In this document: in pieces, positions 1-55,249 of the stretch | How positions within the stretch are numbered: position 1 is the first letter of the stretch | How the letters are laid out: each line of letters begins with the position of its first letter | NCBI GenBank assembly: GCA_025964775.1 | Contig: JAOPYE010000010.1 | Location: 124,001 to 188,000, forward strand | Direction: 5' to 3' | Length of the DNA stretch: 64,000 bases | Source: Marmoricola sp. | GTDB lineage: Bacteria > Actinomycetota > Actinomycetes > Propionibacteriales > Nocardioidaceae | Program-made: the position numbers and the translations under genes | Notes under the pieces: model-generated | The model's input: the letters and a program-made list of their open reading frames with translations, nothing else | Told to the model about the DNA's origin: nothing | The model's database searches: none

Positions 1-611
1 GCGCCGGCATCGCGGGCTACACCGGCACCGACCCGGCGCTGCTGATCTCCGTGAACTACTTCGGCGCCATCGCGCTCGCCACCGGCCTGCACCCGCTGCT
101 CGCGAAGTCGGGGGCGGCCTCGGTGGTGCTGATCGCCTCGAACTCGGTGACGTGCCAGCCCGGTTGGACCAGTGACGGCGTCGTCGAGGCCTGTCTGGCC
201 GATGACGAGGAGACCGCGCGCACACTGGCGGCCGGACACGAGGCCGTGATGATGTACCCGGTCTCGAAGTTCGCCCTGGCCTCGTGGGCGCGCCGGGAAG
301 GGGTGCGGCCCGAGTGGGGCGGCGCCGGGATCCGGATCAACGCGATCGCACCGGGTCTGATCGCCACCCCGATGACCGACGCCCTGCGCAGGGACCCCGT
401 GTTCGGACCGTTCGCCGACGTGTACCCGAACGCGCTCGGCCGCCCCGGCGAGCCCGAGGAGGTCGCCGCACTGATCGCGTTCCTGCTCTCGACCGAAGCG
501 AGCCTGCTGGTCGGCACGATGATCCTCGTCGACGGCGGCACCGACGCGATCCTCAACACGGCACCCCCGCGCAGCACCGACCTGACGACCTTCCCGTTGG
601 AGATTCCATGA
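1..611 (+). CDS. SDR family NAD(P)-dependent oxidoreductase (5' end cut off)
   Basis: The reading frame is open from base 3, so the gene begins before the window; about 202 residues are visible. The fragment starts at the end of the NAG region, has the catalytic Ser in a strand reading LIASNS and the Tyr-x-x-x-Lys pair in YPVSK, then the usual PG..ATPM substrate loop and a C-terminal VDGG segment. This is a classical short-chain dehydrogenase, cytosolic, of unknown substrate. Its stop overlaps the next ATG by four bases (ATGA), so it is co-transcribed with the secreted protein downstream. The Rossmann glycine motif lies outside the window. Confidence 0.9.
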   Translation, partial: AGIAGYTGTDPALLISVNYFGAIALATGLHPLLAKSGAASVVLIASNSVTCQPGWTSDGVVEACLADDEETARTLAAGHEAVMMYPVSKFALASWARREGVRPEWGGAGIRINAIAPGLIATPMTDALRRDPVFGPFADVYPNALGRPGEPEEVAALIAFLLSTEASLLVGTMILVDGGTDAILNTAPPRSTDLTTFPLEIP

Positions 612-2122
612 ACCGCGTTCGCCTGATCGCCATCACCGTCATCGCCGCGCTGGCGGTCCTCGTGCCGGCGCAGATCGGTGCCGCCGACGGACTGCTGCCG
701 ATCCCGTCGCTGCCGACCGACTTCCTCACCGAGTCGTTCACCGGCACCGCGGCAACCGCGAACCCGTTGCCGCACGACCCGATCCCGCAGAACCCGTACC
801 TGTCGCCCAACGGCACGAACTCGATGCACAACGACGCCTACGGCTCGAACGCCTACGAGGTCAGCGGCCCGCTCGGGGTCCACCTCTCGGTGCGCTCCGC
901 GTCGTACGGCGTCTCGGAGTGCGCCACCATGGCCTTCGACTCGCGGGGCAACATCGTCGGTCTGTGCGGCGGCCTGCCGGGCTTCGCACTCCGGTTGATC
1001 GACCCCACCACCTTGCGCACCCTGGGCCCGGACCTCACGACGTCGAACCGTTCGCTCTACCCGCTGACGAATCCGTTCACCGACATCTGCGGGGGTACCT
1101 ACTTCTCGCTGAACAGCTCTCCGGGCCAGGACGACATCGCGTACGTCGTCACCTCGGCCCGCCAGGTGCTGAAGGTCCGCGTCGACCCGAACGGGTTCAC
1201 CACCCTGGGCACCTACGACGTCTCTGGCGTCGTTGCCTCCGACGACTGCCTCGTCGCCACCCTCCCGGACTGGTCGGGTCGAACCTTCTTCGTGACCCAG
1301 AACGGCGTGGTCGGCGCCATCGACCCGACCACCGGAGCAGTCAGGACCCTGCAGCTGCCTGCAGGCGAGGGGATCTACAACTCGATCTCCGGTGACCAGA
1401 CCGGCGCGATCTACCTGGTCACCGACCACAAGCTGTACGCCGTCGCCGCCGACGCAAGCGGAACGCCGGTGATCCGCTGGTCCGCGGCGTACGACCGCGG
1501 CAGCGTGCAGAAGCCCGGCCAGCTCTCCCAGGGTTCGGGCACGACGCCGACCCTGATCGGCCAGCACATCGTCGCGATCACCGACAACGCTGACCCGCGG
1601 ATGCACGTGCAGTTCTACCAGCGCGACGGAGCCGACGCCGGCAAGCTCCTGTGCCAGGCACCCGTCTTCGGCGATGGAGCCTCGGACACCGAGAACAGCC
1701 TCGCCTACGCGGGCGGCAGCGGAGGCAGTGCGTCGGTGATCGTCGAGAACAACTACGGCTACGCCGGCGTGCAGAGCACCGAACTCGGCGCGACGACGAC
1801 CGGCGGCGTCGCGAAGGTGACCCTGAACGCCGACCACACCTGCCAGGTCGACTGGACCAACCCGATCGTCTCGCCGACGACCGTGCCCAAGCTGTCGCTC
1901 GCCAACGGCCTGCTGTACCTCTACGCGAAGCCGAAGTCCTGGCTGCTCGACGACAGCTGGTACTTCTCAGCTGTGGACATCCGCACCGGTAAGACGAAGT
2001 GGATGCAGCGCACCGGGAACGGCATCCAGTGGAACAACCACTACGCGTCCATCTACCTCGGGCCCGATGGCGCCGCGTACATGCCCACCTTGGCCGGATT
2101 GATCCGCTTCAAGGACTCCTGA
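608..2122 (+). CDS. Secreted protein of unknown function, possible beta-propeller
   Basis: 504 residues starting at an ATG that overlaps the SDR stop. The N-terminus (MNRVRLIAI, a hydrophobic stretch rich in Ala/Val/Leu, then an Ala-Ala-Asp site near residue 27) is a signal peptide. The body is rich in Thr, Gly and Asp with repeated blade-like phrases (IDPTT, DQTGAIYLVTD, GPDGAAYMPT), which suggests a PQQ/SGL-like propeller, but I cannot assign a catalytic motif. Several Cys residues fit an exported, disulphide-containing protein. Translational coupling to an SDR suggests a shared pathway; the function is not recognised. Confidence 0.8.
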   Translation: MNRVRLIAITVIAALAVLVPAQIGAADGLLPIPSLPTDFLTESFTGTAATANPLPHDPIPQNPYLSPNGTNSMHNDAYGSNAYEVSGPLGVHLSVRSASYGVSECATMAFDSRGNIVGLCGGLPGFALRLIDPTTLRTLGPDLTTSNRSLYPLTNPFTDICGGTYFSLNSSPGQDDIAYVVTSARQVLKVRVDPNGFTTLGTYDVSGVVASDDCLVATLPDWSGRTFFVTQNGVVGAIDPTTGAVRTLQLPAGEGIYNSISGDQTGAIYLVTDHKLYAVAADASGTPVIRWSAAYDRGSVQKPGQLSQGSGTTPTLIGQHIVAITDNADPRMHVQFYQRDGADAGKLLCQAPVFGDGASDTENSLAYAGGSGGSASVIVENNYGYAGVQSTELGATTTGGVAKVTLNADHTCQVDWTNPIVSPTTVPKLSLANGLLYLYAKPKSWLLDDSWYFSAVDIRTGKTKWMQRTGNGIQWNNHYASIYLGPDGAAYMPTLAGLIRFKDS

Positions 2123-2283
2123 AAGCGGGCCAGATCACCAGTTTGGCCCCTGTTCTGCGCGTGACCTGCCCGTGTGCTCGGTCGTTGACCTTTCTGTGGG
2201 GTGACCTTCGGTCCCCCGCGTCATGCACCTGGTTCGGGGGAACAGGGCGCCTGGCGCGGGGGACGGTTGTCGTCCAGAGGCGT

Positions 2284-2334
2284 TTGCAACATCTCGGTGC
2301 GCCGAGGCGCCCTTTCACGACCGAGCGGTTGCAA
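2284..2334. repeat. Inverted repeat just after the DUF559-type gene
   Basis: Arms TTGCAACATCTCGGT (2284-2298) and ACCGAGCGGTTGCAA (2320-2334) pair over 15 bp with two mismatches and enclose a 21-nt loop. It sits four bases beyond the stop of the minus-strand gene at 2338, where a terminator would be, but has no T-run. The left arm shares an exact 14-mer with the repeat at 3236. Confidence 0.75.
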
Positions 2335-2337
2335 TAG

Positions 2338-3222
2338 CTAGCGCCCCAGGGTCCAGGAGCGAGCCCGCGGACTCTCCTGAGCACGCGAGACAGCCGATTT
2401 CATGCGATCCACGACCAGTGGCACGTTCGCAAGGTCGCCTCCGACGATCGTGAACATCTCGAGGCCGGCTCGCCTGAAGAGGTCCTCGCGTCGTACGTCG
2501 GACCGGTGACGCGCTTGTCCGCGGTGGAACGCGCCGTCGTACTCGCCGACGACGCCGAGCTCGGTGGACAACAGGTCGGGGCGACCGATCCAGGTACCGG
2601 AGGAGTCACCGACCGCCGGATTGCAGAGCGGCCGCGGATAGCCGGCGTCGAACATCCAGATCAGTCGCATCCTGGTCTCTTGCGGCGATCGGGAGCCGAC
2701 GTCCGACAACGTCAACGCAGCCCGTGCGAGCGCACGCCCGGACCATCCGGCCCGATCAGTGAGCAGCGCATCGATGTCGCCCCCAGTCAGGATGCCGGCA
2801 GCTAGCGCCATGTCGATGACCACCACGGCAGACCGCAGGTTCCCGGCCTGCCGCAGCGCGTCGAACGTTGCGCGAGCGGGAGTAGTGCACACGATGCCGT
2901 ACCGCTCGATGACCTCGCCGGGTGGCAATCGCTCCCGTCGCACCGTGAATCCGGCACCACGCCGCATGTCGCGACCCGGGGGAAGGAGGAGCGGCACGTC
3001 GAGGGCCGTGTGACCATCGTGGGCGAAGCCGTCGAAGAACCCTGCCCCGGCGAGTCGGAGCGCAGCCCATCCGGTCACGGCTCCCCCAGCGGGAATCCGC
3101 ATCGATTGCTCGAGGATCCGTTGCTCAACGGTCTGCTCGACCTCGCTCGCGACGTACAGCCTGGGCGACGTACGCCGCCAACGGGGCCCTCGGGCCTGCC
3201 CTTCGGTGGGACCTGAAACCAC
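2338..3222 (-). CDS. DUF559 / AbiEi-antitoxin-like orphan protein
   Basis: 294 residues. The N-terminal half carries the 'R-R-T-x-x-x-LYV' and 'TGWAALRLAG' phrases seen in proteins annotated as AbiEi-type antitoxin-domain proteins. The C-terminal part (about residues 215-280) matches the DUF559 very-short-patch-repair-like nuclease fold, with GEYDGAFHR and a following RREDLFRRAG helix. Such proteins occur as many solitary copies in actinobacteria; whether they are toxins, antitoxins or nucleases is unsettled. No partner toxin gene is adjacent. The gene is bracketed by two related inverted repeats (2284-2334 and 3236-3285), as if it were a cassette placed behind the bkd operon. Confidence 0.75.
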   Translation of the reverse strand: MVSGPTEGQARGPRWRRTSPRLYVASEVEQTVEQRILEQSMRIPAGGAVTGWAALRLAGAGFFDGFAHDGHTALDVPLLLPPGRDMRRGAGFTVRRERLPPGEVIERYGIVCTTPARATFDALRQAGNLRSAVVVIDMALAAGILTGGDIDALLTDRAGWSGRALARAALTLSDVGSRSPQETRMRLIWMFDAGYPRPLCNPAVGDSSGTWIGRPDLLSTELGVVGEYDGAFHRGQARHRSDVRREDLFRRAGLEMFTIVGGDLANVPLVVDRMKSAVSRAQESPRARSWTLGR

Positions 3223-3235
3223 CGGTGCACAAGCG

Positions 3236-3285
3236 TTGCAACATCTCGGCTGTGAACGGCGCCGATCGGCAACCGAGACGTTGCA
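3236..3285. repeat. Inverted repeat between bkdC and the DUF559-type gene
   Basis: Left arm TGCAACATCTCGG (3237-3249) pairs with CCGAGACGTTGCA (3273-3285) with one mismatch around a 23-nt loop. TTGCAACATCTCGG at 3236-3249 is an exact direct repeat of 2284-2297. It lies eight bases past the bkdC stop and 13 bases before the DUF559 gene start, so it could act as terminator, regulatory hairpin or cassette boundary. Confidence 0.75.
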
Positions 3286-3292
3286 CGCAGGC

Positions 3293-4735
3293 TCAGAAGA
3301 GCAACGCTGCTGCCGGGTCCTCCATCATCGAGGCGACATCGGCCAGGAACCGCGAACCGCTCTCGCCGTCGACGTGCCGGTGGTCGAAGGACAGCGTGAG
3401 GGTGCAGACGTCGCGGATCTCCAGCGACTCGTTGCCGGCGCCGTCGGTGACCACCCACGGCAGGCGCTTGGTCGCCCCGAAGCAGAGGATCGCTGATTCG
3501 CCCGGGTTGATGATCGGGGTACCACCGTCGACCCCGAACACGCCGACGTTGGTGATCGTGAACGTCCCGCCGCTCATCTCCGCCGGCTGGGTCCTGCCCT
3601 CCCGAGCGACAGCGGTCAGGTCGCCGAGGGCGCCTGCAAGCTCGAGCAACGAGAGCGAATCGGCGTCCTTGATGTTCGGGACGACGAGGCCGCGCGGGGT
3701 CGCCGCGGCGATACCCAGGTTGACGGCTCCCTTGAAGACGACCTCCTGGTTGGCTTCGTCCCACCACGAGTTGATCACGGGCGTACGTCGGATCGCGCGC
3801 ATGCACGCAGCCGCCAGGATCAGCAGGGGCGAGACCTTCACCCCGGCGAACTCGCGACGCGACTTCAACCTCGCCACGAACTCGGTGCTGCGGGTGACGT
3901 CGACGGTGATCCACTCGGTGACGTGCGGTGCCGTGAACGCCGAGGCCACCATCGCGGCGCCCATCATCTTGCGAACGCCCTTGATCGGCTCGCGACGGTC
4001 GGCGCGACTGCCGGACGGTGTCGACACAGGCGCCAGGGCGCCTTCATCAACCGCCGAGACGCTCCCGGCCGCTGCCTCGACGTCAGCACGCGTGACGACG
4101 CCTCCGGGACCGGTCGCAGCGCAGCTGGCCAGGTCGACCCCGAGATCCTTGGCCAGCTTGCGCACGGGAGGCTTCGCCAGGGTCACCGCCGAACCGATCG
4201 GGGTGTCGGCAAGATCGACGACCGAGGAGGAAGGCTCGGGAGCCTCCGCCACCACGGCCTCGACTAGCTGCATCACCCGGTCGTGCTGCTGCGGCGCACC
4301 GAGGTTGTAGACGTCGTGGACGTCGGCCTTCGCGGCGTGCACGCCAGCGGCTTCGGGAAGCGTCTTGCGGGCCCGTCGTACCGGGGCTCGTTCGGCCTTG
4401 TTGCGCCCGACCAGGCTCTCGCCCTCCCCGCCGCCCGACGCAGCCGGGTTGGACAGGTCGATCTCGCCCGGCGACTCCGGCGACGCAGCCGGGGCCGCGA
4501 CCCCGTCGCCGATCCGGATGATCGGCGTCCCCACCGCCACGGTCTCGCCCTCGGAGACCAGCAGTGCCTCGACGGAGCCGGCGTACGGCGACGGCAGCTC
4601 GACCAGTGACTTGGCGGTCTCGATCTCCACGACGATGTCGTTGATCTTGACCTCGTCACCGACCTTGACCCGCCAGGTCACGATCTCGGCCTCGATCAGG
4701 CCCTCACCGACATCGGGCAAAAGGTATTCACTCAT
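3293..4735 (-). CDS. bkdC: 2-oxoacid dehydrogenase E2 (dihydrolipoamide acyltransferase)
   Basis: 480 residues. A single N-terminal lipoyl domain has its lipoylated Lys in ETAKSLVE (about residue 42), followed by a flexible Ala/Pro/Glu linker, a peripheral subunit-binding domain (VRKLAKDLGVDL...GPGG, about 190-225) and the acyltransferase domain ending with the catalytic DHRHVDG. It transfers the acyl group from E1 to CoA in the branched-chain 2-oxoacid (or pyruvate) dehydrogenase complex. The ATG shares its A with the bkdB stop (TGATG), so translation is coupled. Family length and order match mycobacterial BkdABC. No E3 gene is present here. Branched-chain versus pyruvate specificity is inferred. 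Confidence 0.92.
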   Translation of the reverse strand: MSEYLLPDVGEGLIEAEIVTWRVKVGDEVKINDIVVEIETAKSLVELPSPYAGSVEALLVSEGETVAVGTPIIRIGDGVAAPAASPESPGEIDLSNPAASGGGEGESLVGRNKAERAPVRRARKTLPEAAGVHAAKADVHDVYNLGAPQQHDRVMQLVEAVVAEAPEPSSSVVDLADTPIGSAVTLAKPPVRKLAKDLGVDLASCAATGPGGVVTRADVEAAAGSVSAVDEGALAPVSTPSGSRADRREPIKGVRKMMGAAMVASAFTAPHVTEWITVDVTRSTEFVARLKSRREFAGVKVSPLLILAAACMRAIRRTPVINSWWDEANQEVVFKGAVNLGIAAATPRGLVVPNIKDADSLSLLELAGALGDLTAVAREGRTQPAEMSGGTFTITNVGVFGVDGGTPIINPGESAILCFGATKRLPWVVTDGAGNESLEIRDVCTLTLSFDHRHVDGESGSRFLADVASMMEDPAAALLF

Positions 4736-5712
4736 CAGAACTCCAGGCTCCGGTCGACGGCATCCAGCACACGGTCGAGGTCGGGGAGGTACTCCTCCTC
4801 GAGCCGGGACGGCGGGTAGGGGGTGTCGAAGCCACCGACGCGGAGCACCGGTGCCTGCAGCGAGTAGAAGCACCGCTCCGTGATCCGGGCCGCGATCTCC
4901 GAGCCCATCCCGAGGTTGGTGTGCGCCTCGTGGACGACGATCGCCCTACCCGTGCGCCGGACCGAGTCGTAGACCGGCTCCAGGTCGAGCGGCGAGAGCG
5001 TGCGCAGGTCGACGACCTCGACCGAGCGACCCTCACCTGCCGCCGCCTCGGCCACCTTGAGGCAGGTCTTCACCGTCGGTCCGTACGCCAGCAGCGTGAG
5101 GTCGGCGCCGGGCCGCGCGATCCGCGAGGAGAACAGCGGCACCGGCACGGCGGTCTCGTCGATGTCGGCCTTGTCGGCGTGGTACTGCCGCTTCGGCTCG
5201 AGGAACACGATCGGGTCGTCCGAGGCGATGGCCTGCTGGATCATCCAGTAGCCGTCGATCGGGTTCGAGCAGGTCACCACCTTCAGGCCCGGGGTGTGCG
5301 CGAACTGCGCCTCCGGTGACTCCGAGTGGTGCTCGACGGCGCCGATGCCACCGCCGTACGGGATCCGGATGACCATCGGCATCTTGACCGCACCGTGCGT
5401 GCGGAAGTGCAGCTTGGCGACCTGGCTGACGATCTGGTCGTACGCCGGGTACACGAAGCCGTCGAACTGGATCTCGCAGACCGGCCGGTAGCCGCGCATC
5501 GCCATGCCGACCGCGGTGCCGATGATGCCGGACTCGGCGAGCGGCGAGTCGATGACCCGGTCTTCACCGAAGTCCTTCTGGAGACCGTCGGTGATCCGGA
5601 AGACTCCGCCGAGCTTGCCGACGTCCTCACCCATGAGCAGGACCTTGGGGTCGTCCTCCATCGCCTTGCGCAGGCCCGCGTTCAGAGCCTTGGCCAACGT
5701 CATCTTGGTCAT
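4735..5712 (-). CDS. bkdB: 2-oxoacid dehydrogenase E1 beta subunit
   Basis: 325 residues beginning MTKMTLAKALNAGL. The transketolase-like pyrimidine-binding domain is marked by GEDVGKLGGVFRITDGL and SPLAESGIIGTAVGMAMRGYRPV, and the C-terminal transketolase domain by VEVVDLRTLSPLD. With E1 alpha it forms the thiamine-diphosphate-dependent decarboxylase of the complex. The stop overlaps the E2 start by one base and its own ATG overlaps the E1-alpha stop the same way (TGATG), giving a tight three-gene operon. Length is normal for the family and no key segment is missing. Confidence 0.93.
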   Translation of the reverse strand: MTKMTLAKALNAGLRKAMEDDPKVLLMGEDVGKLGGVFRITDGLQKDFGEDRVIDSPLAESGIIGTAVGMAMRGYRPVCEIQFDGFVYPAYDQIVSQVAKLHFRTHGAVKMPMVIRIPYGGGIGAVEHHSESPEAQFAHTPGLKVVTCSNPIDGYWMIQQAIASDDPIVFLEPKRQYHADKADIDETAVPVPLFSSRIARPGADLTLLAYGPTVKTCLKVAEAAAGEGRSVEVVDLRTLSPLDLEPVYDSVRRTGRAIVVHEAHTNLGMGSEIAARITERCFYSLQAPVLRVGGFDTPYPPSRLEEEYLPDLDRVLDAVDRSLEF

Positions 5713-6842
5713 CAGTGGGCTCCTTCGAACGAAGCGAGGTAGGCAGCGAAGGTGTCCCGCTGCTCTGCCAGCTCGGGCGTCTGGTCGACGTAGACCTGGT
5801 CGAAGATCGCCAGCGGGTGCTGCTCCGGCATCGACTTGCAGCCCTCGCGCAGCCGGACACCGAGCTCGTCGGCCTCGAGCTCGACGGAGTCGAAGAAGGC
5901 GTGGTCGGCCAGTCCGTTGCGGGTCAGGTAGACCTTCACCCGGCTGATGGGGTCCTTGAGCTTCCAGTACTCGAGCTCTTCGCTCATCCGGTAGCGGGTC
6001 GGGTCGTCGGTGGTCGTGTGGGCGCCCATCCGGTACGTGTAGGCCTCGACGAGCATCGGACCGTTGCCGTCGCGGGTGTACTGCAGCGCCGCCTGGGTCA
6101 CCGCGTGCACGGCGAGGACGTCGTTGCCGTCGACCCGTACGCCGGGGAAGCCGAAGCCGCGCGCCCGCTGGTAGAGGGGGATGCGTGACTGCCTCTCGAT
6201 CGGCTCCGAGATCGCCCACTGGTTGTTCTGGCAGAAGAACACCACGGGCGCGTTGTACGACGCTGCGAAGATGAACGCCTCGTTGACGTCGCCCTGGGAC
6301 GAGGCACCGTCGCCGAAGAACGCCACCACGCTGGTGTCCCGATCAGGATCGCCGGTGCCGACGAGCCCGTCGCGCTGGACGCCCATCGCGTAGCCTGTCG
6401 CGTGCAGCGTCTGCGCGCCGATGACGATCGTGTAGTTGCCGAAGTTGTGCTCGTTCGGGTCCCAGGCTCCCTGGTCGACACCCCGGAAGAGGCTGAGGAT
6501 CCGGAGCGGGTCGAGGCCGCGGCAGTACGCGACGCCGTGCTCACGGTAGGTCGGGAAGACGAAGTCCTGCGGCAGCAGCGCCCGGCCGCAACCGATCTGG
6601 GCCGCCTCCTGGCCGAGCAGCTGGGTCCAGATCCCGAGCTCGCCGTGCCGCTGCAGCGCCGTCGACTCGGTGTCGATGCGGCGGGTCAGCACCATGTCCC
6701 GGTAGAACCCGCGAACCACCTCGGCCTCGTCCCGACCGCCGGCGTCGAACGCGTAGTCGGGGTGCTCGACACGCTGTCCTTCGGGGGTCAGCAACTGGAT
6801 GAACTCGGGACCGCCCTGGGCAGTCGGGCCTAGCAGGCTCAT
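5712..6842 (-). CDS. bkdA: 2-oxoacid dehydrogenase E1 alpha subunit
   Basis: 376 residues. The thiamine-diphosphate motif is present as GDGASSQGDVNEA...NN (about residues 195-225), with the upstream substrate-binding region LLGQEAAQIGCGRAL and PTYREHG. The chosen ATG (MSLLGP) has AGGAG about eight bases upstream; the frame stays open further upstream but without family-like sequence. First gene of bkdABC; roughly 200 gene-free bases upstream hold the promoter, which I could not pin down. It decarboxylates the 2-oxoacid and passes the acyl group to E2. Confidence 0.93.
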   Translation of the reverse strand: MSLLGPTAQGGPEFIQLLTPEGQRVEHPDYAFDAGGRDEAEVVRGFYRDMVLTRRIDTESTALQRHGELGIWTQLLGQEAAQIGCGRALLPQDFVFPTYREHGVAYCRGLDPLRILSLFRGVDQGAWDPNEHNFGNYTIVIGAQTLHATGYAMGVQRDGLVGTGDPDRDTSVVAFFGDGASSQGDVNEAFIFAASYNAPVVFFCQNNQWAISEPIERQSRIPLYQRARGFGFPGVRVDGNDVLAVHAVTQAALQYTRDGNGPMLVEAYTYRMGAHTTTDDPTRYRMSEELEYWKLKDPISRVKVYLTRNGLADHAFFDSVELEADELGVRLREGCKSMPEQHPLAIFDQVYVDQTPELAEQRDTFAAYLASFEGAH

Positions 6843-7043
6843 GCGTGTGTCTCCTGTGGGTCTGCGCGAAGCGGGGTTTCCGCTCACGCATCTACAACTC
6901 ATGGCCCCCGTACAGCGCACCAGGGTGGGGTGCGATCTGTGGCGTGGGCCACATGACGTGTCCAAGGTACCCAGAGGGCGACCAGCGGCGCCAACCAACT
7001 CGTCAGTAACGTTGCGCGATAACCGCTCGCCACACCCGGGGCC

Positions 7044-15076: not shown

Positions 15077-15137
15077 GATTGTCGGACAATCTCAGTGTGC
15101 GTCATCCCTGGCCGGTTGTCCAAATCTTGTCCGACAA
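15077..15137. promoter_or_regulatory. Two operators for the GntR/FCD regulator
   Basis: ATTGTCGGACAAT (15078-15090) is a perfect palindrome and TTGTCCGACAA (15127-15137) is a second copy of the same core, TTGTCnGACAA; a further half-like TTGTCCAAA lies at 15117. Both sit in the 105-bp gap between ddaH and gntR. The TTGT-n-ACAA pattern matches known FCD-type GntR sites, so autoregulation plus control of ddaH is inferred. Confidence 0.8.
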
Positions 15138-15144
15138 TCAGGGA

Positions 15145-38698: not shown

Positions 38699-38956
38699 GT
38701 GGATGAAGTCACCCAGTTGGACATGCTTCTAGGAAATAGAGCCCGGCATGCAGGAATCTCGTGCCCTACGCCAGATCGTGGATGAAGTCACCCAGTTGGA
38801 CATGCTTCTCGTAAATAGAGCCCTGCATGCAGGAATCTCGTGCCCTACGCCAGATCGTGGATGAAGTCACCCAGCTGGACATGCTTCTAGTAAAAAGAGC
38901 CCGGCATGCAGGAATCTCGTGCCCTACGCCAGATCGTGGATGAAGTCACCCAGCTG
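38699..38956. repeat. 79-bp tandem repeat, three full copies and a partial one
   Basis: Units start at 38699, 38778 and 38857; a fourth, partial unit from 38936 lies inside the 3' end of the VWA gene. Copies differ at only a few positions. Each unit repeats the last codons of that gene (minus-strand LGDFIHDLA plus stop). A 16-bp perfect inverted repeat (38907-38922 with 38956-38971) spans the true stop codon. The array fills the gap between the VWA gene and the HelR-like gene. Confidence 0.95.
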
Positions 38957-40306
38957 CACGAGATTCCTGCACTCGACCATGGGAAGCAGCGCGGCATACT
39001 TGTTCGCCGCGGAGTCGCCGGTGTTCCAGTGCCGCGGCGATTCCGGGTTCAGCCACCAGGTGTGCCGGGCGTCGTGGGTCATCTGCTTGACCACGTCCAG
39101 CGCCAGGTCGGAGTAGTTCGACCGGGCATCGCCGAGGATCAACAGGTTCGTCTTCGGCGTGAGCGCGTCGCCGTGGAGCTCGGTGAACCGGGTGAAGGCC
39201 CGGCCGTAGTTCGTGCGACCCCAGAGGCTGGCGTACTGGGCACTGGCTGCCAGCGAGGCCATCGTCTCGATCGGGTCCGCGCCCGGACCGAACCGGTCCG
39301 AGACCTCGTGGATCTCGTCGACGAAGGTGAAGGCGCGCACCCGGTTGAACTGCTCGCGCAGCGCGAACACGAGCATCAGCGTGAAGTTCGCGAAGTTCGC
39401 CACCGAGCCGCTCACGTCGCAGAGCACGACCAGGTCGCTGCGGCTCGCCCGCCGCGGACGGTGGTGGGTCTCGAGCGGTACCCCGCCGGAGGAGACCGAG
39501 GCGCGGACCGTACGCCGGAAGTCCAGCGGGCCGCGCTGCTTCGACGCCTTGTGCCGGTTGAGCCTGGTCGCGAGCCGCCGGGCCAGTGGCCCGATCTCGC
39601 GGCGCATCTCCTCCAGGTCGCTCTTGCGCGCGGAGGTGAAGTCGAGCTGCTCGATGCTCTTGCGCACGGTGTAGCGGGCCACGTGCTCGGGGCCGCGGAC
39701 CTCGGCCGCACGACGGCGGACCTCCGCGTCGACCATGGCACTGAACGCGGCCACCTGGGCCTCCACGAGGCGGCGCAGGGTCGGGTCGGTGTCAAGGTCG
39801 GCGAGCAGACCCTCGAGCACGCGGTCGACGAGCTCGCCCGGCGAGACCCTGTTCATCACGTTGTACGACGACCATCGCTGCTCACCGGGACCGCGTCCGC
39901 GGATCAGGCCGAACCGCTGGACCGCCTCGCGGGCCAGGACGTTCAGGGCGTCCGGGTCGCCGATGCCCAGAGCGTTGACGAGCTGCTCGCGGAAGTCGGC
40001 GAGGTCGGCCGGGCCGTCGCCGAGGGACTCGCTGCGCTCGTCCACCTCGGCGTCGTCGGGTTGGTCGGGGCGGGTGGGATCGCCTACCAGGGCAGGGAAA
40101 TAGAGGTCGAAGACATGGTCGAACCCGGCCCGGTGCGGTTGTCGCTTGACCAGGGTCGCGGCGTAGGCGGACCGGACGATCTCGCGGTCGCTCAGGCCGA
40201 GGGCGAGGACGGCGTCGGCGGCATCGAGCCCTTCGGACAACGAGACCGGAAGACCGGCAGTGCGCAGTGCCTCGACGAACGCGATGTGCCGATCCAGGAG
40301 CGACAT
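38924..40306 (-). CDS. VWA-domain protein, CoxE/MoxR-associated type
   Basis: 460 residues starting MSLLDRHIAFVEALRTAGLP. The C-terminal von Willebrand A domain (about 275-455) has the MIDAS motif D-x-S-x-S in VVLCDVSGSVANFA and a later Asp in LLILGDARSNY. The N-terminal part is the CoxE/DUF58-like helical region. It follows a MoxR ATPase gene by four bases; such pairs act as chaperones inserting metals or remodelling protein complexes. The last 24 bases belong to the 79-bp repeat array, so the stop region has been copied downstream. Confidence 0.9.
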   Translation of the reverse strand: MSLLDRHIAFVEALRTAGLPVSLSEGLDAADAVLALGLSDREIVRSAYAATLVKRQPHRAGFDHVFDLYFPALVGDPTRPDQPDDAEVDERSESLGDGPADLADFREQLVNALGIGDPDALNVLAREAVQRFGLIRGRGPGEQRWSSYNVMNRVSPGELVDRVLEGLLADLDTDPTLRRLVEAQVAAFSAMVDAEVRRRAAEVRGPEHVARYTVRKSIEQLDFTSARKSDLEEMRREIGPLARRLATRLNRHKASKQRGPLDFRRTVRASVSSGGVPLETHHRPRRASRSDLVVLCDVSGSVANFANFTLMLVFALREQFNRVRAFTFVDEIHEVSDRFGPGADPIETMASLAASAQYASLWGRTNYGRAFTRFTELHGDALTPKTNLLILGDARSNYSDLALDVVKQMTHDARHTWWLNPESPRHWNTGDSAANKYAALLPMVECRNLVQLGDFIHDLA

Positions 40307-55160: not shown

Positions 55161-55249
55161 GGTTTCGAGACAGGCCGTGCCGGCCTTCCTCAACCACCGG
55201 TGGTTGAGGTCGGTGGTTGAGGAGGTTGCGCAGCAACCGTCTCGAAACC
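55161..55249. repeat. REP-like composite palindrome next to pntB
   Basis: Outer arms GGTTTCGAGAC (55161-55171) and GTCTCGAAACC (55239-55249) are a perfect 11-bp inverted repeat; inner arms CCTCAACCACCGG and CGGTGGTTGAGG pair too. A 31-base core (55215-55245) is identical to 57018-57048 inside pntAA. Such elements are common between genes of nocardioform actinobacteria. Confidence 0.8.

Follow-up and report, generated by a model that had tools for sequence, protein, structure and literature searches.

A lone gene for a nuclease-like protein in the window, by which the whole analysed stretch of 64,000 nucleotides is meant, is bracketed by two copies of an imperfect palindrome. Homologues of this gene in relatives are mostly bracketed by palindromes of their own, and copies with the same arms are dispersed elsewhere in some of these genomes. 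We propose, with an even chance of being right, that the encoded nuclease recognises its own palindromes and spreads them as RAYT proteins spread REP sequences, with an unrelated enzyme.

Results

Two dyads around one gene in the window

The features of the locus are summarized in Table 1. The sequence TTGCAACATCTCGG occurs exactly at 2284-2297 and 3236-3249, in both cases on the + strand and 952 bp apart, and the complementary arms end at 2334 and 3286, with two mismatches in 14 positions for each pair. The upstream dyad is located 13 bp ahead of the GTG codon and 6 bp beyond the stop codon of the gene for a 2-oxoacid dehydrogenase E2 (bkdC-type). This result confirms the earlier note, in which a lone gene with an imperfect hairpin on each side, both with the same left arm, was described. 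Half-site matches with at most three mismatches number 8 in the window, as compared with 3.35 expected, and 8 matches are reached in 2 of 100 shuffles. The other neighbour of the gene encodes a 504-aa protein without a Pfam match at E≤1e-4. An adjacent gene for a DUF1814 nucleotidyltransferase toxin, the partner in AbiE, is not present among the neighbours of the gene in the window.

Table 1. Positions of the gene and of the dyads that bracket it in the window
Feature	Position	Strand	Description
51-bp dyad, downstream copy	2284..2334		arms TTGCAACATCTCGG / CCGAGCGGTTGCAA, 23-nt middle; 3 bp beyond the stop codon of the gene
Gene for a 294-aa nuclease-like protein	2338..3222	-	open frame; GTG start; short N-terminal region, AbiEi-like region and C-terminal region of predicted Vsr/DUF559/MTES_1575 type
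51-bp dyad, upstream copy	3236..3286		arms TTGCAACATCTCGG / CCGAGACGTTGCAC, 23-nt middle

Four other repeats are seen in the window. An extra hairpin, GTCCCCCGCG ... CGCGGGGGAC, is located directly left of the first dyad (2211-2264) and is nearly unchanged in the genome of a sister species (G004). A long inverted repeat, GATTGTCGGACAATC ... TTGTCCGACAATC, is located at 15077-15139, an inverted repeat with perfectly matching 14-bp arms (CAGGAATCTCGTGC) and a 33-nt loop at 38909-38969, and a small palindrome built of TGGTTGAG words at 55187-55223.

The encoded protein

The window protein has no match in Pfam or in NCBIfam at E≤1, and matches the AbiEi models of PADLOC at residues 78-157 with a best E value of 1.1e-6. 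The AbiEi-like region extends approximately from residue 78 to 164, and the PADLOC AbiEi models match 21 of the 30 aligned sequences. At E≤0.01, MTES_1575 is matched, weakly, by 6 of these 30 sequences and DUF559, also weakly, by 5, and DUF2726 is the sole other Pfam family. Three of five named relatives score above the Pfam cut-off for DUF559 and one scores just below it, and the Rhodococcus ruber protein matches AbiEi at 5e-11 and no Pfam family at E≤0.01. The label "DUF559-type" that was originally given to the gene is thus appropriate for the family, relatives of which pass the cut-off, but not for the window protein itself.

R186, D216, E227 and G230 are invariant among the aligned homologues, and D229 and H233 are nearly so; D216, E227xD229 and H233 are located in the C-terminal nuclease region. 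The AlphaFold2 model of the window protein has a mean pLDDT of 91.4. Sequence profiles point to a nuclease fold of the Vsr/DUF559/MTES_1575 type for this region, and MTES_1575 is reported to have a Vsr-type REase fold (PMC3710099). The HUH/Y1 tyrosine transposase, which is the RAYT enzyme, is not detected by Pfam searches either of the window protein (E≤1) or of the 30 aligned sequences (E≤0.01).

Bracketing of homologous genes

DUF559/AbiEi-type orphans are frequent among the relatives, in that a homologue of the window gene is present at E≤1e-10 in 45 of the 58 genomes. To our knowledge, no role is agreed upon for them. Because two of the seven dyad copies in one of the genomes (G036) flank a homologue of the window gene, the flanks of the homologues were tested directly, by scanning them for long dyads without a prescribed sequence (17-nt loop, at least 14 of 18 arm matches). 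In set 1 (31 loci, 350-bp flanks), which was available during development of the measure, 28 such dyads are detected in 23.0 kb of flank and 1 in 93.2 kb elsewhere. In the later sets, for which flanks of 650 bp were used, they number 32 in 54.1 kb of flank and 0 in 58.3 kb elsewhere for set 2 (40 further loci, in which L262, a duplicate of L067, is counted), and 42 in 40.8 kb of flank and 18 in 71.9 kb elsewhere for set 3 (30 loci from twelve dyad-bearing or other genomes of the family, with wrong gene bounds for L297, which is cut by a contig end).

When the best dyad of each 650-bp flank is taken, an odd-centred dyad with at least 15 of 18 matches is found at 76 of 199 homologue flanks, in which L262 is dropped and the wrong bounds of L297 persist, and at 1 of 60 flanks of other genes, which are supplied by 30 loci including L139 and L157. 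The corresponding numbers for even-centred dyads are 18 of 199 and 5 of 60. The best repeat between the left and right flanks (400 bp) was also scored without assuming a palindrome, for 99 loci from Nocardioidaceae and order relatives, with L262 dropped and L297 absent. The score is 20 or higher in 81 of these 99 loci, in some of which (L269, L272, L308 and L309, kept in the count) the repeats are tandem-like instead, and in 7 of 297 mismatched pairings. Two of the 30 control loci are above 20, both of them invalid (overlapping flanks, L139 and L157). The score is below 20 in 18 loci, among them the window, with a score of 18 that 10 of the 297 mismatched pairings also reach, and its counterpart in the sister genome, with a score of 15. 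Bracketing is a strong rule that the window itself illustrates only weakly, and the suggestion that the gene and its hairpins belong together holds far beyond this one window.

In the brackets of L054, L058 and L251, a second, even-centred small palindrome (for example GGCAGTTTCACCGGCTGGCCGGTGAAACTGCC) is located beside the dyad.

Structure and position of the dyads

In the average over 76 dyads, pairing is high at distances of 9 to 31 bp to either side of the centre and drops to 0.2-0.5 further in, which corresponds to 23-bp arms and a 17-bp variable middle; the selection of the dyads favours offsets 9-27, while offsets 28-31 are free of selection. Identity between the left and right copies is highest in two blocks, at 9-14 and at 19-29 bp from the centre, with a dip between them, so that the arm is bipartite, and the blocks are approximately one helical turn apart. 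The half-site consensus has a conserved ACG core, and many arms begin with TAGTCC, on both sides, to be compared with the one-sided GTAG/CGTC tag of RAYT systems. The arms are alike on both sides of one gene and different between genes. Arm similarity tracks protein similarity (46 loci, 783 pairs, rho 0.31, a value that none of 999 permutations reaches), a co-divergence that is partly expected from common descent.

The two dyads align on their centre in 37 of 38 two-sided loci, in direct order in 20 and inverted order in 17, although orientation is weakly determined for such near-palindromes. Their positions relative to the gene are regular. Of 39 downstream units, 31 have their edge between -15 and +20 bp relative to the stop codon, and overlap between the nominal edge and this codon is seen in 15. 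In 33 of 36 cases, the first aligned codon follows the edge of the upstream unit at a distance of 100-230 bp, and the upstream dyad precedes the earliest possible start by a median of 55 bp (36 cases), a spacing from which the 13 bp in the window differs.

Dispersed copies and resident genes

Copies that fit the pattern, the bracketing ones included, number 5 in the source genome of the window (G000), 4 in G017, 7 in G036, 15 in G122 and 20 in G071; copy numbers in Nocardioidaceae are low (4-20). Each of these five genomes with at least four copies contains a family gene that is bracketed by the same arms (the window gene, L039, in G000, L253 in G017, L074 in G036, L293 in G122 and L291 in G071). 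The core pattern, which fits one arm class and leaves the other classes uncounted, occurs in 19 of 245 genomes of the family, mostly once, and the reversed control in one genome. G123 and G028 were looked at among the single-copy genomes, and the single copy of G123 is also part of a bracket (L310). A pattern with a variable gap matches 164 of the 245 genomes, mostly by chance, and served as a lead to G122 alone. In the copies of G017, the outer arms are nearly identical and the 17-nt middle varies.

The positions of 33 solo copies, including 11 of the 20 copies of G071 and leaving out the five solo copies of G036, were classified with approximate gene calls, by a caller that missed at least one gene (at C8) and according to which L160 is co-directional, whereas reading of the ORFs makes it divergent. 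Thirteen copies are located between convergent genes, 15 between co-directional genes, 2 between divergent genes and 3 inside a called gene. Three peculiarities are seen among the copies of these genomes. The right outer end of L225, L317 and L321 in G122 differs (GTGTCCCCCAAG), as if these copies were hybrid or truncated. The outer arm GGATAG of L107 and L161 in G017 apparently provides the neighbouring gene with its stop codon (trmD-like and carboxyltransferase-like by reading). In G071, tandem dyad pairs 92-390 bp apart (L327, L333 and L291) have near-identical middles, which suggests local duplication.

Four records were obtained by a protein search of the plasmid collection, and a second search, with one of them as a query, gave seven, of which four loci are new. 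Left-right repeats are present in 7 of 8 named loci and absent in that of Nonomuraea. The records of R. ruber and Nonomuraea look chromosomal, and the former (NZ_CP145323.1) is labelled as a plasmid yet carries serS and pks13. It contains six 47-bp dyads in 74 kb, with 13-bp arms CCGAATGTCACAT and one mismatch in one copy. Each of these dyads is located 10-44 bp from an annotated gene 3' end; four are between convergent genes, and five are intergenic while one overlaps a gene end. Two of them bracket Rruber_RS29040 and a third is beyond the next gene. This gene, Rruber_RS29045, is also enclosed by two dyads, so that three dyads flank two genes (L352/L353). The Tsukamurella loci L348 and L349 have an even centre and a 24-nt loop, which indicates that odd centring is not universal. 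Phages give no match, and none of the six pattern matches in viral contigs is in a contig that encodes a relative. A pattern scan of public contigs gave 22 stretches, none of them with the exact 23-nt spacing, and these were treated as unrelated.

Turnover between the source genome and its sister

The source genome (3.9 Mb, 53 contigs, 94% complete) contains the paired dyad pattern at 5 places, and the reversed control at 0, over its whole length. The three copies outside the window (C34:178455, C8:48067 and C29:90447) all have the 23-nt spacing, and none of them adjoins a gene of the window family. One follows an antiporter-like gene at 23 bp, another follows a short gene on L015 at 8 bp, and the last is located between convergent clpX-like and valS-like genes (names by reading). 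The occurrence of the hairpins away from such genes had been proposed as evidence against a link between them. Three of the five dyads in this genome are indeed solo, which taken literally would refute the link, but a REP-like element predicts such solo copies, and dispersed copies share the arms of the resident gene in all five genomes with at least four copies.

The window arms are present only in the source genome and its sister G004 among the 58 genomes searched, the source genome included, and likewise in 2 of 24 genomes of the genus. When a covariance model is applied to 14 genomes, seven copies score 55.8-64.5 bits, and no other place scores above 28.3. Single weak matches in G010, G011, G013, G033 and G056 were taken as chance. 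The sister genome contains the window gene at the same place with 92% identity. Its downstream dyad is kept with substitutions, and its upstream dyad is absent, with unrelated sequence separating the coding region from the E2 gene. Of the three dyads outside the window, those at C34 and C29 are missing from the sister genome, and that at C8 is present there with a decayed stem. Intergenic spacers differ wholesale between the two genomes, and no clean empty site is found in this comparison. These results indicate that the dyads come and go while the gene persists.

The source genome contains a second homologue of the window gene (L040, C11:86773-87645; 47% identity), which is the sole other one at E≤0.01, and accordingly a full unit in multiple copies, as for a transposase-style element, is not detected in this genome at that threshold. 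L040 is bracketed by arms of its own, GTCCGGCACG..., which are unlike the window arms. When the regions near the E2 gene (bkdC) in other genomes are compared, an E2 match is present in 17 of 20 regions, which extend approximately 2 kb past E2 and are cut in some cases, and a gene of the window family in 2 of 20 (G009 and G010), approximately 2 kb away, a comparison that is little informative about an empty site. The proposal that the gene and its two hairpins move together as a cassette is not supported, since the sister genome has the gene with the downstream dyad alone, and the dyad is multi-copy while the gene is not.

Discussion

Proposed recognition and spread of a palindrome by its nuclease

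According to the reading that we prefer, the gene product would be a DNA-binding nuclease of the PD-(D/E)XK type, with an AbiEi-like and a Vsr/DUF559-like region, and its cognate site would be the palindrome that brackets the gene. One monomer would bind each arm, which is bipartite and typically 23 bp long, and a pair of monomers would bind the dyad. The upstream dyad, promoter space, the gene and the dyad at the stop codon would form a REPtron-like unit. We infer binding because AbiEi-type antitoxins are described as binding paired 23-bp inverted repeats (PMC7319586), so that the 23-17-23 dyad is most simply the binding site of the protein; the protein probably recognises the dyads that bracket its gene. 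Of the roles that the earlier note considered for the hairpins, that of a target of the encoded nuclease-fold protein is the best fitting, although binding itself is deduced from sequence.

The later steps are speculative. The nuclease may nick or cut the dyads, and repair or recombination at the cuts may copy the dyads into other intergenic sites, mostly beyond gene ends. A RAYT-like role is suggested because a predicted nuclease is associated with dispersed palindromes that turn over between sister species, and the odds that the protein actively disperses its dyads seem to us roughly balanced.

It is rather unlikely that the dyads serve in regulation only, such that the protein binds the two dyads to control and insulate its own gene by AbiEi-style autoregulation and the solo copies are dispersed by another cause. 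AbiEi and Rv2827c are reported to autoregulate via 23-bp inverted repeats (PMC7319586), and the position of the upstream dyad ahead of the start codon, both in the family and in the window, agrees with such a role. However, nearly the same sequence is located at the stop codon, where one would not expect an operator, the solo copies are mostly located past gene ends, and the sister genome retains the gene without the upstream dyad.

It is unlikely that the complete unit is a present or former mobile element, with the dyads as its ends or recombination sites and the solo dyads as scars or empty sites. The unit is regular, consisting of a gene of approximately 0.9 kb, its flanks and near-identical ends, its nominal edge overlaps the stop codon in some cases, and its layout is like that of an insertion sequence or a site-specific cassette. 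However, the ends occur in both direct and inverted order, the second homologue in the source genome, the sole other one at E≤0.01, is diverged and has different arms, and no clean empty site is found, the spacers differing wholesale between the source genome and its sister.

It is improbable that the dyads act as RNA, either as terminators or as mRNA 3' hairpins, and are kept alike on both sides by gene conversion. All twelve folded strands have z values of -2.2 to -5.1, and the strand with the better G-U pairing is that of the gene ending just before in four copies of the source genome, of which the two between convergent genes are uninformative. However, one copy of G017 has a wobble pair on the non-transcribed strand, and the covariation pair counts are reached by 88 of 500 shuffles, and both results argue against the regulatory RNA that the earlier note offered as a possibility. 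In addition, the middle is at least 17 nt long, no U tract is seen, and the arm has a central dip and co-diverges with the protein. An Rfam search of positions 1-7000 of the window gives three matches, all far under the gathering scores. A regulatory RNA is unnecessary, because the arms are bipartite like a protein site.

Chance, or unrelated repeats that bracket the gene without any biological link to it, is a negligible explanation: palindromes are common in GC-rich spacers, as the even-centred ones at control flanks illustrate, but the left-right repeats separate homologous loci from mismatched pairings (81 of 99 against 7 of 297), and the three locus sets agree.

If the preferred reading, that of a nuclease spreading its own palindrome, is correct, it would provide a mechanism for short intergenic palindromes outside RAYT lineages. 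Provided that every gene of the family has a DNA site of its own on both flanks, the substrate would be readable from the genome, and binding and cleavage would be testable at once. The many diverged protein-site pairs would then be a natural data set for DNA-recognition specificity.

Comparison with known systems

The RAYT gene itself is usually not multi-copy. RAYT genes have a copy of a palindrome on either side, further copies of which are scattered extragenically near the 3' ends of upstream genes, and REPINs consist of paired conserved ends around a spacer (PMC2817692, PMC3116915, PMC3733652); the REPs that flank a RAYT gene are reported to be inverted in every case (PMC2817692). The window family is similar to RAYT/REPtron systems in that the gene is located between two palindrome copies (81 of 99 loci, a few of them of the tandem type, with 18 as the score of the window pair). 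It is also similar in that the palindrome is dispersed extragenically (4-20 copies in five genomes, 30 of the 33 placed solo copies outside called genes, and six dyads in 74 kb in R. ruber). It differs from them in that its enzyme is AbiEi-like with a putative Vsr-type nuclease and has no HUH/Y1 tyrosine transposase, its brackets are direct (20) or inverted (17), with weakly determined orientation, its units are typically 23-17-23 bp, and its hosts are Actinomycetota. A CGTC class of REP is reported to be without a dedicated transposase (PMC3733652). The same paper describes TIRtrons, in which a RAYT-like gene is flanked by long terminal inverted repeats, and small dispersed families are formed by some of these repeats. 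The window family resembles them, by description and not letter by letter, in that the gene is flanked by repeats, and differs from them in that the TIRtron enzyme is described as a tyrosine transposase.

Similarity to the AbiE type IV toxin-antitoxin systems is seen in the AbiEi-like protein. The typical arm spans 9-31 bp from the centre, namely 23 bp, and AbiEi and Rv2827c are reported to bind 23-bp inverted repeats that occur in pairs with a spacing of 3 or 13 bp (PMC7319586). Unlike AbiE, the window gene has no adjacent toxin, a nuclease region is added, and the repeat is present at both gene ends and dispersed. The C-terminal region resembles the Vsr-like/DUF559/MTES_1575 nucleases. Caulobacter VsrA, a DUF559 protein, is reported to be responsible for the SOS response in a methyltransferase mutant and is hypothesised to act on T:G mismatches (PMC12907096). 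Unlike VsrA, for which no bracket is mentioned in the accessible part of that report, the window family is bracketed by palindromes. Among the papers listed in searches of a collection with few subscription papers and without bioRxiv, mostly by their abstracts, none connects DUF559, AbiEi or Vsr proteins to bracketing or dispersed palindromes.

The window family is assigned neither to RAYT nor to AbiE, because it lacks the RAYT enzyme feature and has no partner toxin in the window. Somewhat more tentatively than for the window gene itself, and at slightly less than even chances, we suggest that a counterpart of the RAYT-REP systems, independent of them and non-homologous, exists in Actinomycetota. 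This would be a large family of AbiEi-like, Vsr-type nucleases, so far annotated as hypothetical proteins or DUF559 orphans, each of which keeps and spreads its own palindrome of the 23-17-23 type, with several orthogonal systems in one genome and with co-evolution of protein and palindrome.
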